34,935 bases of DNA from a virus. Both the position numbers and the translations under genes were made by a program. Below, piece by piece: positions 7,633-12,652 of the stretch (position 1 is the stretch's first letter; the number at the start of each line of letters is the position of its first letter). Location: positions 1 to 34,935 of IMG/VR virus record IMGVR_UViG_3300008451_000432; one strand, 5' to 3'. Under the pieces are notes generated by a model. That model was not told the DNA's origin, did no database searches, and saw only the letters and a program-made list of their open reading frames with translations.

Positions 7633-7992
7633 CTATTTTTTCCCAACCTTCAAGGCTTCCTGCCATGCCTCAACAAGCAGCCGATGCTTGGTTTTGCAGT
7701 CGCCGTATGTCTCAATAAGCGCCTTTTCCCACAATATACGTTCTGGGTCTACCAGAGGAACGGGCGGGTCAGTTAGGTTCTTGCACGGATGCGCGAGGTT
7801 CGCGGGCGGTGCCGGGAGCGTCTGTATCACGGATGCTTTCGATGAGCAGCCCGACAGCCCTATCAGGAGGCACAGGGCAATCAGCAGGAGGGGCAGGGAT
7901 AGTTTTGTAAATTTCCCTAATCGTGTCTGTTCGTTCGATGGAGCGTCCATCGGCAATATCGCGGGCTTTTTCGTATTCTTGCGCCTTAGCAT
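7633..7992 (-). CDS. Outer-membrane spanin lipoprotein, Rz1-like (119 aa)
   Basis: The o-spanin is an outer-membrane lipoprotein that pairs with the i-spanin across the periplasm and fuses the membranes in the last step of lysis. A hydrophobic segment (LSLPLLLIALCLLIGL) ends in a lipobox LSGC, with C49 the predicted lipid-modified cysteine. A Pro-rich section follows (LPAPPAN, TDPPVPLVDP), as usual in Rz1. The start at 7992 has GGGGGTG about six bases upstream; a start at 7950 (MDAPSNEQ) would give a more compact signal peptide. It overlaps the end of the i-spanin gene by 224 bases in another frame, the embedded/overlapping architecture of Rz/Rz1. Confidence 0.75.
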   Translation of the reverse strand: MLRRKNTKKPAILPMDAPSNEQTRLGKFTKLSLPLLLIALCLLIGLSGCSSKASVIQTLPAPPANLAHPCKNLTDPPVPLVDPERILWEKALIETYGDCKTKHRLLVEAWQEALKVGKK

Positions 7993-8146
7993 CTATCACC
8001 CCCTGCATCTGTTCCTTTTGCTTTGCGGCCTTTTCCAATGCCTTGGAATAAGCTGCATCACATTGCCAATCCCGCACCTTATAGCCACCAAGGAAGCCCA
8101 CAATCAGCAGGCCGCCCATGATATAAGGTTTGGGAATGCCAAGCAT
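7769..8146 (-). CDS. Inner-membrane spanin, Rz-like (125 aa)
   Basis: A single N-terminal membrane anchor (about residues 8-24, YIMGGLLIVGFLGGYKV) is followed by a long charged helix (residues 30-85) rich in Ala, Lys, Glu and Gln, and a short Pro-rich C-terminus: the i-spanin plan. A cysteine follows the anchor (DWQCDAAY), which could form a disulphide-linked dimer as in lambda Rz. Its ATG overlaps the endolysin stop codon by one base (TGATG). The overlapping downstream lipoprotein gene confirms the spanin call. Confidence 0.75.
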   Translation of the reverse strand: MLGIPKPYIMGGLLIVGFLGGYKVRDWQCDAAYSKALEKAAKQKEQMQGVIDAKAQEYEKARDIADGRSIERTDTIREIYKTIPAPPADCPVPPDRAVGLLIESIRDTDAPGTAREPRASVQEPN

Positions 8147-8757
8147 CAGAGCCAGTTTGCGTATTTCTTGGTTTTGGCCTTGCGGTCATCCAAGCCATGC
8201 GTCCCACCATTAATGCGCTTTGTCAGGCGCAAGATAGCATCGTCATTGATGCCAAGGTCGCAAATCTGCCACAGCTTGTTTTTGTCAAAGAACCAAAGGG
8301 CGCTCTCAAAACAAAGTTCACCAGCCACCAAATCAGGGTTGGTCATAACGTCTGGGCGGTTCACATAATTGGCAAATTCTTGATAGTTAAAACGCCCGGT
8401 CAATTGGAGCGCCCCCCTGCCGCGAAATGCGAACCCCGCGCCTGATGCCTCATCGCCATTACCCATGCGGTTCGCATAGACCCGGTTGGCAATCTTGGCA
8501 GGCTGACGCGCATAGGCATTGGCAAGCGCATCCGTTGGGAAATACTTGCCGAAAATCTTGCGCAGCCCTTGGGCCGAATAGTTAAGGTTCTCGCTGAAAG
8601 CAGTGAAATTGCCGCTTTCATGGGCGGTCTGGGCAAAGAAATGCGCAGCCCGGTTGCGGTTCAAGTTATAGAATTTGGCGGCGGCCTTCAAAGTGCCGGG
8701 GCCAAAAGCCCCGTCAGGCGTAACGCCAATCTTCGCTTGCAGATTTTTAAGGCTCAT
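8146..8757 (-). CDS. GH19 (chitinase-like) endolysin (203 aa)
   Basis: Cleaves the peptidoglycan glycan backbone during lysis. Residues 1-30 resemble the start of a peptidoglycan-binding helix set (LQAKIGVTPDGAFGPGTL); the GH19 domain follows, with FFAQTAHESGNF (E47 in HES is the expected catalytic acid), SENLNYSAQGL, then GNGDEASGAGFAFRGRGALQLTG and the aromatic end ANWL. No signal peptide or SAR anchor is seen, so export depends on a holin. The start overlaps the EF-hand protein stop codon by four bases (ATGA); an earlier start in frame would lie inside that gene. Confidence 0.9.
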   Translation of the reverse strand: MSLKNLQAKIGVTPDGAFGPGTLKAAAKFYNLNRNRAAHFFAQTAHESGNFTAFSENLNYSAQGLRKIFGKYFPTDALANAYARQPAKIANRVYANRMGNGDEASGAGFAFRGRGALQLTGRFNYQEFANYVNRPDVMTNPDLVAGELCFESALWFFDKNKLWQICDLGINDDAILRLTKRINGGTHGLDDRKAKTKKYANWL

Positions 8758-9332
8758 TGTCCACCCCCAATGTTTGCGCGCCAATTTGGGAAATCGTTCT
8801 CATCAACCACGCCATCGCCGTTCAAATCCCAGCGCATATCTGTGCGGTCTACCATTTCCCAAGGCTGCAATATGCCATCGCCGTTTTCGTCAAACGGGAC
8901 ATATTCGGCAGCGGGTTCCTCTACGGCTTCAACCGCGACAGCAACTGCCGCAGCCGCTGGGGCAGGGGCAATCGGTTCGCTAAGGTCAAGAGTTTGCGAA
9001 GGTTCTGGGCTGTCAGGTGCGGGCGCAGAAGGGTTATCAATTGGCGCAGGCGGGTCATTTGGCGTTTCCTTGCTATCGCGGGCATTCGCGTTAAGGCTCA
9101 AGCCACCAAGCAGGCCGACAAAGGCCCCCACGATGGTTTGGAATGCAGGGTTAATCATCTCAAGCACGGCAGTGCTGTCCACCAACTCATTCGGCATGAA
9201 CAGGCCAACAACCAAGGCCATCACCACAACCACAATCACCAGTGACAGCGTTGTAATCGCCATGCGGATGGTGAATTCAATTGTGTCGTTGATGCCCTCT
9301 TCTTTGCTCTCAAATCCTTCAAAGAAACTCAT
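8754..9332 (-). CDS. Holin candidate with C-terminal EF-hands (192 aa)
   Basis: Residues 24-45 (ITTLSLVIVVVVMALVVGLF) and about 63-80 (FQTIVGAFVGLLGGLSL) are two membrane segments. An Ala/Pro-rich linker follows at about 90-140. Residues 148-159 are a textbook EF-hand calcium loop, DENGDGILQPWE (ligands D148, N150, D152, E159), and residues 169-180 are a second, DLNGDGVVDEND. Just upstream of the endolysin in an operon otherwise without a holin, it is the best holin candidate. The calcium-binding tail is unusual for a holin. Alternatives are a membrane anchor or regulator of lysis. Confidence 0.6.
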   Translation of the reverse strand: MSFFEGFESKEEGINDTIEFTIRMAITTLSLVIVVVVMALVVGLFMPNELVDSTAVLEMINPAFQTIVGAFVGLLGGLSLNANARDSKETPNDPPAPIDNPSAPAPDSPEPSQTLDLSEPIAPAPAAAAVAVAVEAVEEPAAEYVPFDENGDGILQPWEMVDRTDMRWDLNGDGVVDENDFPNWRANIGGGQ

Positions 9333-9336
9333 CGCA

Positions 9337-9852
9337 TTAGTCCTTTCCGGCCAAGGGATTTGCTAAAGTCCGTTGGATTTTCTCATCAACATCTTTTTGC
9401 AGGGCTTTGACGCGCTCTTGGCCTTCTTTGTCCTGCTCACGCAACTGCTGGATGATTGCGCGTTGCATTGCAATAGTTTGTGCATCGCTTGCCCTCACAC
9501 TACTGCTAACCGCATCCACAGTTTGCCGGGTGCTGGTTACGCTGCTTGAGATGCTGCCAGATAGATAATTCAGCGCCTCAGAATTACCTTTAGTCAATCG
9601 CTCAATGGATGTCACGCGCTCATCAAGCACGGAAATTCGGCTCTCAATGCCAGACAGGTCGGGCGGCACATAGGCCGCAGTCACTTCCTTCATGGTTAGG
9701 AATTGCTGATAGACTTGGAAGCCAGCCCACATTCCACCAACCACAGTGGAAAGCGCCGCAAAGATAATTGCGATTTTTCCGCTGCTAAGGTTGCCAATCT
9801 TGAAGCTGAAACCACCTTCATCAAACGAAACTTCTGGCTTTTCATCACTCAT
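9337..9852 (-). CDS. Membrane-anchored coiled-coil protein (171 aa)
   Basis: An N-terminal acidic segment (SDEKPEVSFDEGG) is followed by a membrane anchor at about residues 27-50 (IAIIFAALSTVVGGMWAGFQVYQQF) and a long helical, Ser/Gln/Thr-rich region to the end, consistent with a periplasmic or cytosolic coiled coil. Unknown function; it might be a lysis accessory protein or anti-holin. The start I chose (ATG at 9852) overlaps the previous stop codon by eight bases, as at other junctions here; the frame also has an ATG at 9864. Confidence 0.6.
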   Translation of the reverse strand: MSDEKPEVSFDEGGFSFKIGNLSSGKIAIIFAALSTVVGGMWAGFQVYQQFLTMKEVTAAYVPPDLSGIESRISVLDERVTSIERLTKGNSEALNYLSGSISSSVTSTRQTVDAVSSSVRASDAQTIAMQRAIIQQLREQDKEGQERVKALQKDVDEKIQRTLANPLAGKD

Positions 9853-11311
9853 ATTGCTGCCCAATCATCTCCAACCATCGGCGGTCATTATTCATCATCA
9901 GTCGATACATTACCAAATAAGCGTCCACAGGTCGATTTTTGCGGTAAATCTCCCTTGGGTTGTAAAACGCGACATCTGGAATTTTAGCTTGCGCATATTG
10001 CACAAGGTTCACATTGCCCGCCAATTGCTGCATCTCAGCGTCAGGCTCGGCGGGGCTGCTGTCCTCTTTCTTGGCGGACATCATATCCAAAATCTGCAAT
10101 TGGGTTGCCGGGTTCATAACATCAGACACAGATGCAACGGATGCAGAGGCCAATAGTTGCTGCCCTTGCTGGGGCGTGATTGGGCTGAAAACTAATTCAG
10201 CCTGATTAAAAGCCCGCTCAGGCGAATTTGAGGCTTCCTGCGCCATAACCATGCTCGTGCGCTCTTCTTGCGCTGTGCTGCCTTGCTGGTCGGCCTCGCT
10301 GGCATTTTGGGCGGTGTTTTCTTGCTTGGCTTCCTGTTGAACGTCCTTGGCAGCGTCTTGTGATGCCATTTCCTGATTTGCCTGCCCGTCTTGTGCGCCA
10401 ACTTGGCTTGGCAGCAATGCAGAAAGCAGGCGGCCAGATGTTAAGGCGGCCAATTGCGTTGGGCTTAGGCGCTCTGCCTGTTGCTTGGTTTCCTGCTTGG
10501 CCTCAGCCACAACCTCAGCGCGGGCCTCTGCGACAGCTTCTGTGCGTGTCTCAGCCTGCGCAACCACAGTCACAGCTTCTGCCACAGGTTCGGCAACTGG
10601 CTCTGCCGCTGCAACCTCTTCGGCAGCCGGGGTGGCTTCCTGCACAGCCTCTTGCACGGCCACAACAACGGGCGCTGCCGAAACGCTTGGGCCAATAACA
10701 ACAGGGTTAAAAATAGGCTCTGGCTCTTCTGGCAGACCAAGGGCGATATAGCTGGTGTTGTCCAGCAAGTTGACGTTTTGCCCATATAGGATGCTAAAGC
10801 TGTCAGTTGATGTCGGGCCAGTTAATCCAGCGGTCACAACGTGCCACTGATTGTTAACGTCCGCATAGTTCCATTGGATTTTTCCATCTGGATAAATGGC
10901 AATTTCAAACGTGTTGGTCAGCCCGGAGCCATATTCGTAGGTGTTATACCAGCCAAAGATTGCAGCATTTACGTCTGTGCGGAAATATGGATTGCCGCCA
11001 CTAACTAGGTCTGTCCAAAGCCCATAAATAGCATTGCGCGGCGCTTGCTCAATAGGCTCACCATTGCAGCACCGATTGCCGATGTCCGCAAATGAGATGA
11101 AGCCATTGGATGAAACCCAAGCCTGATTAAATGTCTGGCCGAAATACTGAAACGGAAAGCCAAGCTGCACAAGGCGTGTGCTATCATCACCACCATTTAG
11201 AGGGGTCATGGTTTCTGGGCCGCCAATGATTTGGCCGGGAATGATGATGGGGCTGTAATCCTGCGCAGATGCAGGCGCAGCCACTAACGCTAAGGCAAAG
11301 AGCCATCTCAT
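9845..11311 (-). CDS. Exported nidogen-like (NIDO) domain protein (488 aa)
   Basis: An N-terminal signal peptide ends at ASA|QD (about residue 16). Residues 45-192 read like a NIDO domain: LGFPFQYFGQTFNQAWVSSNG, later FEIAIYPDGKIQWNYAD. The rest, from about 200, is a long Ala/Glu/Val- and Gln-rich, low-complexity region with repeated AEPVAE and QEA units, then a compact C-terminus (YNPREIYRKNRPVDAYLVMY). The protein should be exported to the periplasm or outside the cell. NIDO domains are mostly known from adhesive extracellular proteins. Start overlaps the preceding gene by four bases. Its role in a phage late operon is not known. Confidence 0.65.
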   Translation of the reverse strand: MRWLFALALVAAPASAQDYSPIIIPGQIIGGPETMTPLNGGDDSTRLVQLGFPFQYFGQTFNQAWVSSNGFISFADIGNRCCNGEPIEQAPRNAIYGLWTDLVSGGNPYFRTDVNAAIFGWYNTYEYGSGLTNTFEIAIYPDGKIQWNYADVNNQWHVVTAGLTGPTSTDSFSILYGQNVNLLDNTSYIALGLPEEPEPIFNPVVIGPSVSAAPVVVAVQEAVQEATPAAEEVAAAEPVAEPVAEAVTVVAQAETRTEAVAEARAEVVAEAKQETKQQAERLSPTQLAALTSGRLLSALLPSQVGAQDGQANQEMASQDAAKDVQQEAKQENTAQNASEADQQGSTAQEERTSMVMAQEASNSPERAFNQAELVFSPITPQQGQQLLASASVASVSDVMNPATQLQILDMMSAKKEDSSPAEPDAEMQQLAGNVNLVQYAQAKIPDVAFYNPREIYRKNRPVDAYLVMYRLMMNNDRRWLEMIGQQYE

Positions 11312-12162
11312 TTGCGCTTCTTGGTATCCGGGCGGTTCTCAGGGTATTCAGCCCAAGCGTTTGTGGCCTCAGTGCCAATTTTCCCATAGAACGGGCAAGG
11401 GGTGCCTGCCATTTCCATTGCTTGAAAGACGCGCTTGTCTTGGCAAAGCAGCGATACAGCAGCCACCTTCATTCCCATGTCGAACAGCTTGGACGATAGC
11501 TTAATCCGTTCGCAATTTTCATCGCGCACAGTCCGTCCAGCCGATAGGCCGAAGATTTGGGTCTGCACTGCGCCAGACTGACCAGTGGTGCAAAGGTCTT
11601 GGCTGTAAGACATCATGCTAGGCGCGATGGCGCTGGGCGGCGGCGACTTGATGTTCTGGTCAATCACCTGACGATTGATGCTCTCGCTATAGCTTTTGCT
11701 GTCCGAGACATTGACGTTGTTGTTCTGATTGACGTTGTTGGCAGTGGAATTCTGGTTGACCACCTGATTGACGTTTGAGGTCACATTCTGGTTTGATGTC
11801 TCGGTTGTGATATTACGATTGGTGCTATCGACAGTCGAGATGTTCCGATTGGTCATATCACCAAAATTGTAATTGGTGTTTTCATTCTGGCTGGTCGAGG
11901 TGCTGACATTCTCGTTATAATTTGTATTGGTTGAGGTGGACACATTGGTCGATGTGGACACATTCTCATTGTAATTTGTCGCGGTGCTGGTGTTGATGTT
12001 GGTGTTGGTCGAGGTGCTGGTGTTGACGTTGTTGTTCGTCGCCGTGCTGGTAGACGTATTGACGTTCGTGTTCGTCGAATTGGTTGTCGTGTCGTAGACG
12101 TAGTTATTCGACTGAGCAAAAGCCGCCACAGGAACAAAAGCAAGCAGCAGCAGTTTACGCAT
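11308..12162 (-). CDS. Exported Asn/Ser/Thr-repeat protein (284 aa)
   Basis: A clear signal peptide (MRKLLLLAFVPVAAFA|Q) precedes about 140 residues of low-complexity repeats of Asn, Thr and Ser, units such as NTNVNTSTST and NENVSTST. The last 110 residues form a different, compact domain (SPPPSAIAPSMMSYSQDL...) with four cysteines (DLCTT, ENCER, LLCQD, TPCPF), which could make two disulphides in the periplasm. It overlaps the 72-residue protein's stop codon by one base (TGATG) and the NIDO gene by four. Function unknown; the neighbouring signal-peptide gene suggests joint export. Confidence 0.65.
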   Translation of the reverse strand: MRKLLLLAFVPVAAFAQSNNYVYDTTTNSTNTNVNTSTSTATNNNVNTSTSTNTNINTSTATNYNENVSTSTNVSTSTNTNYNENVSTSTSQNENTNYNFGDMTNRNISTVDSTNRNITTETSNQNVTSNVNQVVNQNSTANNVNQNNNVNVSDSKSYSESINRQVIDQNIKSPPPSAIAPSMMSYSQDLCTTGQSGAVQTQIFGLSAGRTVRDENCERIKLSSKLFDMGMKVAAVSLLCQDKRVFQAMEMAGTPCPFYGKIGTEATNAWAEYPENRPDTKKRK

Positions 12163-12382: not shown

Positions 12383-12652
12383 CTATTTCCTGATATTTAT
12401 CAGCTTGCAGTTTGGCTCTAAGGCTTCAAATCCGTGCCACTGGTCATCTTTCCAATCGAAAATATCGCCAGCGTTTGCTTCTTTTTCCCATCCAACCCCA
12501 AAAACTCTAACCTTCCCGCGACATACAATCGTAATGTGATTTGTTTCTGGGGCCATTTGGTGAGAGTGCATTTCTAAGGTGTCACCCATATCCTCAAAGG
12601 TATAGATGACACCCCCAATTGAGCCAATTTGTATTTGCTTACTCAACAACAT
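12383..12652 (-). CDS. Cupin-domain protein (89 aa)
   Basis: A small beta-rich protein with the cupin pattern EMHSHQMAPETNHITIVCRGKVRVFG, then AGDIFDWKDDQWHGFEAL: HxH, a short turn, a Glu, then a second-motif His. This could bind a metal and a sugar or acid; cupins occur downstream of tail fibre genes in several phages, but their role there is not established. The start (ATG at 12652) overlaps the end of the preceding gene by 14 bases. Length fits a minimal single-cupin domain. Confidence 0.7.
   Translation of the reverse strand: MLLSKQIQIGSIGGVIYTFEDMGDTLEMHSHQMAPETNHITIVCRGKVRVFGVGWEKEANAGDIFDWKDDQWHGFEALEPNCKLINIRK

Follow-up and report, generated by a model that had tools for sequence, protein, structure and literature searches.

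Genes A, B and C appear to form one mobile cassette of aquatic phages, which in the window (the whole stretch of 34,935 bases of a virus record analysed here) is carried with the lysis genes. Our main reading, to which we give a probability of roughly 40%, is that the three products make up a late exported envelope complex with a swappable ligand-binding head, serving adhesion or receptor occupancy around lysis. We arrive at an adhesin because of the predicted export, the A-B-C linkage, the exchange of heads, a match to the adhesin RemA, a likeness to tail fibres, the 'putative carbohydrate binding domain' label of the B in uvMED S28-C10, the swap of the cassette as an accessory unit and its lysis-linked position.

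Gene order and predicted export

Siphovirus-like late genes, with terminase, portal, head protein and tape measure, lie on the minus strand of the window. The initial annotation had described two adjacent exported genes, and its coordinates and frames proved correct: gene A (12162-11308, minus strand, 284 residues) has a signal peptide, N/S/T repeats, an SPPPSAIAPS linker and a four-cysteine C-terminal domain, while gene B (11311-9845, minus strand, 488 residues) has a signal peptide, a NIDO-like head, a disordered linker and C-terminal helices with an FYxPxxIY motif. PHROG matches and direct reading place both, as proposed, between the tail-fibre genes and the endolysin and spanins, with the expected anchored coiled-coil proteins on either side (12380-12162 and 9852-9337, minus strand). 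A and B are adjacent, but the real unit is larger than a pair: the downstream flank is gene C (9337-9852), the third member of a trio A-B-C, with an N-terminal transmembrane segment, a coiled coil and the ending NPLAGKD. The upstream flank, directly before A, is a 72-residue membrane-anchored protein with relatives in 11 related loci. A small cupin-like protein (89 residues, by reading; 12383-12652) is found between the tail-fibre genes and the cassette.

Directly after C, on the same strand, comes a proline-rich multi-transmembrane protein (8754-9332) with an EF-hand-like end, DLNGDGVVDENDF, and relatives in 10 loci; from its position it is a holin-like candidate. The endolysin (8146-8784, minus strand) is GH19 chitinase-like (Pfam PF00182, 2.3e-8; phrog_181, 1.1e-59). 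By direct reading, an Rz-like i-spanin (8146-7769) overlaps an Rz1-like lipoprotein o-spanin with an LSGC lipobox (7992-7633), both within 7633-8146 on the minus strand; neither matched a spanin family in this analysis. The first three junctions, from the 72-residue gene to C, are stop/start overlaps (TGATG, ATGA and an overlap of 8 bases) and TAATG is found after C, an arrangement that fits one translationally coupled lysis-end operon.

Both of the signal peptides claimed earlier are present, each spanning residues 1-16: MRKLLLLAFVPVAAFA before QS in A (AFA-QS; 12115-12162, minus strand) and MRWLFALALVAAPASA before QD in B (ASA-QD; 11264-11311, minus strand). A uniform rule applied to the 44 window genes flags only A, B and the Rz-like i-spanin and, with the i-spanin segment read as a transmembrane anchor, A and B hold the sole cleavable-type signal peptides (2 of 44). 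Across homologues, a heuristic rule calls a hydrophobic N-terminus in 110 of 116 As and a signal-peptide-like one in 78 of 84 complete Bs. A lipobox is found in none of the 116 As, and the 12 apparent matches among B homologues, to which window B does not belong, all fall inside the hydrophobic segment.

Disulfide-folded proteins tend toward even cysteine numbers. Among non-redundant homologues, the count is even in 86 of 92 mature As and 50 of 54 Bs, as against 26 of 51 cassette-flanking genes; the contrast is strong, while the p-values are too small given that the homologues are not fully independent. Cysteines in B range from 0 to 30. Because signal peptides occur in only two of the 44 window genes and cysteine counts are almost always even across relatives, the predicted export of A and B from the cytoplasm is well supported, and their predicted disulfide folding outside it is supported.

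The A-B-C cassette encodes no outer-membrane secretion route. In nine loci (L004, L041, L048, L069, L084, L104, L108, L113 and L059) A ends in a hydrophobic tail such as SIGIGAILLLLL, and in all of these except L059 the N/S/T linker is very short. The tail suggests a membrane-anchored form of A. Since the cassette brings no outer-membrane route and some As have this anchor-like tail, the complex may never reach the surface.

Linkage and distribution of the cassette

By tblastn, A has matches in 11 phage records, namely six pelagiphages of different types, two roseophages, a uvMED Votkovvirus and two spring-water phages. Seven of these, the pelagiphages and the uvMED one, have A followed by a protein of about 430-610 residues and then by a short membrane coiled coil, with one small extra gene inside this order in two of the seven; the last gene ends in NPL in all seven except HTVC115P. 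A phage late operon exporting such large proteins had been thought unusual, a view that does not survive the IMG/VR scan with the four-cysteine domain of A: this marker domain is common in aquatic phages, with at least 599 confirmed loci. Co-occurrence of the two genes is near complete: of the 72 unique A loci that extend at least 3.5 kb downstream, 71 have B after A. Among these 72 loci, an NPL-ending C was recognised in 59 by a strict pattern and in seven more by eye (66), with two further variant coils, and no C could be recognised in L007, L009, L108 and L115. In the reverse test from the window-type C, both B and A were upstream in all 52 loci with enough sequence; these scans consist of best matches, and linkage is less certain in the most distant relatives.

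Among named phages, the carriers are those of SAR11 and roseobacters. A bacterial origin was rejected: the 21 genome-contig loci, all metagenome- or single-cell-derived and spread across unrelated phyla, are read as misbinned phage DNA, and none of them yielded a cellular homologue with context. We found no description or name of the A-B-C cassette in the literature. Among Pfam, NCBIfam, PADLOC and PHROGs, the only family bearing on the function of A, B or C is phrog_20531, for A; the NCBIfam matches are low-complexity or coiled-coil noise.

Several cassettes have additional neighbours. An IscU-like Fe-S scaffold gene is located between B and C in L086 (after 6372) and L096 (6563-6973), and the A-B gap measures 375 bases in L068 and L074. 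A staphylococcal-nuclease-like gene (DGDTxD, GIDTPESRT) immediately precedes A in the marine loci L028 (2413-2829), L038 (2504-2932), L066 (2378-2806) and L076 (2902-3339), and an annotated toxin-activating lysine-acyltransferase lies a few genes past the cassette of HTVC115P (gp46; L004:11243-11692).

The comparison of two pelagiphages points to a clean swap and to an accessory cassette. In HTVC202P, A-B-C is flanked by a gene and a terminase that are 91% and 81% identical, respectively, to their counterparts in HTVC026P, which has three small genes there instead. These (gp25-gp27; L122:3892-4800) encode a membrane coiled coil and two small exported-looking cysteine proteins, and are possibly a functional alternative to A-B-C. 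The gp25 protein resembles the C-position protein of HTVC115P.

Domains of A and B

The four-cysteine domain of A (residues 187-279; 11326-11604, minus strand) is the most conserved part of the cassette. As the initial annotation had it, A ends in a four-cysteine domain; the cysteines do not vary in either of two alignments, of 39 and 50 sequences, and the domain was modelled confidently as a hairpin followed by four helices. A matches phrog_20531 over residues 81-266 (E 1e-13), a PHROG of unassigned function. Searches of the PDB with the A model (Foldseek, VIA-align) gave nothing significant, the best VIA Z of 4.2 being in the range that the tool calls common. The N/S/T-rich stretch (about residues 17-170; 11653-12114, minus strand) covers 153 residues, where about 140 had been estimated, with 64% N+S+T and strict two-residue alternation (autocorrelation z=+6.1 at lag 2 and z=-3.7 at lag 1).

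Such a stretch could in principle form an extracellular, amyloid-like polar-zipper fibre, a phage-made counterpart of curli. The strict periodicity over about 150 residues, a linker of up to 293 residues in relatives and the long strands called in the A model are in its favour, as is the fact that phage curli clusters have already been proposed for host capture (PMC7029224, PMC9599517). We nevertheless regard a fibre as very improbable: in several cassettes the repeats are down to about 20 residues, so that they must be dispensable, the strands were modelled at low confidence (pLDDT mostly 40-50), and there is no match to a curli family.

The type VIII (curli) cluster of pelagiphages resembles the cassette in being an exported multi-gene module that moves between unrelated aquatic phage families, and it has been proposed to act on the host surface or in aggregation (PMC9599517, PMC7029224). 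Membership in that system was rejected: the cluster has the composition HK-CsgF-CsgG-CsgA/B-FecR-AC, and A, B and C match none of these families in Pfam, PHROGs or NCBIfam. The 'sibling capture' proposed for it (PMC7029224) is the nearest published idea. A study of the methylophage Melnitz saw no clumping for a comparable curli idea (PMC9004378).

The head of B (residues 20-192; 10736-11254, minus strand) was modelled by AlphaFold as a confident beta-sandwich, with pLDDT 84-97 in most 10-residue blocks. The long tails noted by the initial annotation are disordered in the model, and the C-terminal region (residues 434-488; 9848-10012, minus strand), common to Bs with different heads, is helical at low confidence and bears the FYxPxxIY motif. 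The NIDO label is supported only in part. Window B has no Pfam match at E<=10, and one relative (L061, E 0.0019) stays at 18.7 bits against a gathering cut-off of 25 for NIDO (PF06119); nevertheless, a profile of 40 B homologues matches RemA residues 9-175 over the head (E 1.2e-11), the target being RemA and not the NIDO family itself. We found nothing relevant in the literature on NIDO domains in phages.

RemA/RemZ of Flavobacterium johnsoniae (sequence 8gl6_D) is a secreted adhesin with the homologous domain at its N-terminus, after the signal peptide, and a title cited in PMC10994853 reports RemA as a mobile surface lectin. In the solved complex, whose trapped substrate is named RemZ, a RemA homologue, this substrate is well resolved only in its C-terminal domain. 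B differs as a 488-residue phage protein with another C-terminal half and with partners A and C.

Among predicted viral structures, Foldseek matched the B model to an uncultured phage protein (E 1.8e-27) and a Synechococcus phage S-SRM01 protein (E 5.7e-5), and the head weakly to a tail-fibre model of Xanthomonas phage Suba (E 0.0099, probability 0.92). Against the PDB, Foldseek and VIA-align found nothing significant for B; the best VIA matches, YidC periplasmic and GH81/PL26 sandwiches, have a Z of 4.9, again in the common range. Neither window B nor the B of L029 matched any of 50,697 phage records by tblastn, and the B C-terminus alone is too divergent for a profile scan. One B (L110:6411-8549) contains 30 cysteines, and the repeat CxxxPLxxxxCPGYxxA occurs many times between its head and its tail; shorter forms of this repeat are found in marine Bs (e.g. 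L025, L029, L059).

The tail-fibre resemblance of the head, together with the position of the window cassette after the tail-fibre genes, could mean that B is a host-recognition protein of the virion, its N-terminal hydrophobic segment being no working signal peptide. The gene label 'putative carbohydrate binding domain', given to B in uvMED S28-C10 and HTVC033P, is listed under host recognition in the passages of PMC3909814 covered here, where it marks the commonest identifiable genes of hypervariable marine metaviromic islands, read as virion host recognition; those passages leave export, the partners A and C and head exchange out of their description. The evidence for export makes a plain virion role less likely: the signal-peptide-like ends are kept across homologues (A 110/116, B 78/84), cysteines are even in number and reach 30 per B, and the partner C is a membrane protein. 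We consider a receptor-binding virion component quite improbable.

That B heads are exchangeable, between NIDO-like, carbohydrate-binding-like and other folds, is well supported by sequence comparison. Sorted by head, the 84 complete Bs make up ten groups, one NIDO-like with 56 members, one jelly-roll with 14 and eight that are smaller, while 68 of the 84 have one C-terminal family in common. Between L099 and L016, A is 88% identical and the B linker aligns at 41%, and the heads give no alignment at all; the head of L099 is CBM-like by reading and has motifs in common with that of L101, on a different backbone. Every part is under purifying selection, with dN well below dS in six close pairs. 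A fast-evolving B head was rejected, since median identity over 57 close pairs was 0.90 for the head and 0.74 for the C-terminus.

Variable heads would also suit the varied targets of superinfection exclusion, in which exported proteins block the DNA entry or the receptor of competing phages, and an exported, envelope-located, accessory and horizontally moved cassette is what such a system might look like. The late, lysis-linked position in the window and the lack of a match to PADLOC or a known exclusion family tell against it, and we rate exclusion as unlikely. PADLOC, which does not cover all exclusion proteins, gave nothing but a chance match to the coiled coil of C (E 0.0072).

Position at lysis and proposed role

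The position of the cassette raises the question of a lysis accessory: a C-tethered, periplasm-spanning A-B-C that loosens the envelope or times its breakdown besides holin, endolysin and spanins. In the window, overlapping codons connect the cassette with the endolysin operon, and many loci have a holin-like, Rz or Rz1 gene next to it; in 34 of 53 loci longer than 7.5 kb we found a neighbour from our probe set, which includes two non-lysis neighbours from the window. C has an i-spanin-like topology, with an N-terminal membrane anchor and a coiled coil in a lysis operon as in Rz/Rz1, and some As have the anchor-like tail. Yet Rz/Rz1 are already encoded by the window and several relatives, the cassette is absent from a close relative, and in HTVC202P, Baldr, uvMED S28-C10 and Mosig its neighbours are terminase or primase genes and not an annotated endolysin. 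Nor would a general lysis part be expected to have exchangeable heads. An accessory role in lysis is, on balance, somewhat unlikely. Membership of A-B-C in a spanin pair was rejected: there is no lipobox partner (0 of 116 As), separate Rz/Rz1-like genes are present at 8146-7633, and the flanks of relatives have Rz-like PHROG matches.

The initial annotation had suggested adhesion, superinfection exclusion, envelope remodelling or phage aggregation. The sequence singles out none of the four, and an adhesion-type head is favoured by the RemA profile, the CBM-like swap and the even cysteines. In the adhesin mechanism that we propose, A and B would be exported by Sec and would fold with disulfides outside the cytoplasm, while C would be an inner-membrane protein whose coiled coil extends into the periplasm. 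The three would form one complex, C and A holding B in the envelope, and C, together with those As that have C-terminal hydrophobic tails (nine), would tether it to the inner membrane. B would then use a long flexible stalk to present an exchangeable head, which is NIDO-like in the window and CBM-like or otherwise folded elsewhere, and which may bind a glycan or protein at the surface of the host's envelope. Acting as a modular adhesin around lysis, the complex would occupy or cross-link host surface ligands, so that progeny would not be wasted on debris and/or would be held near new hosts, two variants that are not separable here. Several points weigh against this reading: the missing outer-membrane route together with the anchor-like tails, the PDB searches that matched neither A nor B significantly, the head of B, which does not outpace the rest of the protein in close pairs, and the Melnitz result.

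More tentatively, and perhaps rather than probably, the cassette represents an undescribed and widespread envelope apparatus of aquatic phages: a scaffold tethered to the membrane and bonded by disulfides, from which interchangeable ligand-binding heads are displayed on the dying host to match its surface variants much as tail fibres do.

Taken globally, a cassette that occurs in phages of SAR11 and roseobacters and in numerous uncultured phages of aquatic habitats, that has passed from one phage type to other, unrelated ones and that purifying selection maintains must confer a common benefit. HTVC202P, which has the cassette, and HTVC026P, which lacks it at the same site, are cultured phages and make it directly testable. 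In hypervariable phage islands, B-type genes have so far passed as host-recognition genes of the virion; should their products be exported instead, this reading of marine phage-host matching needs revision.
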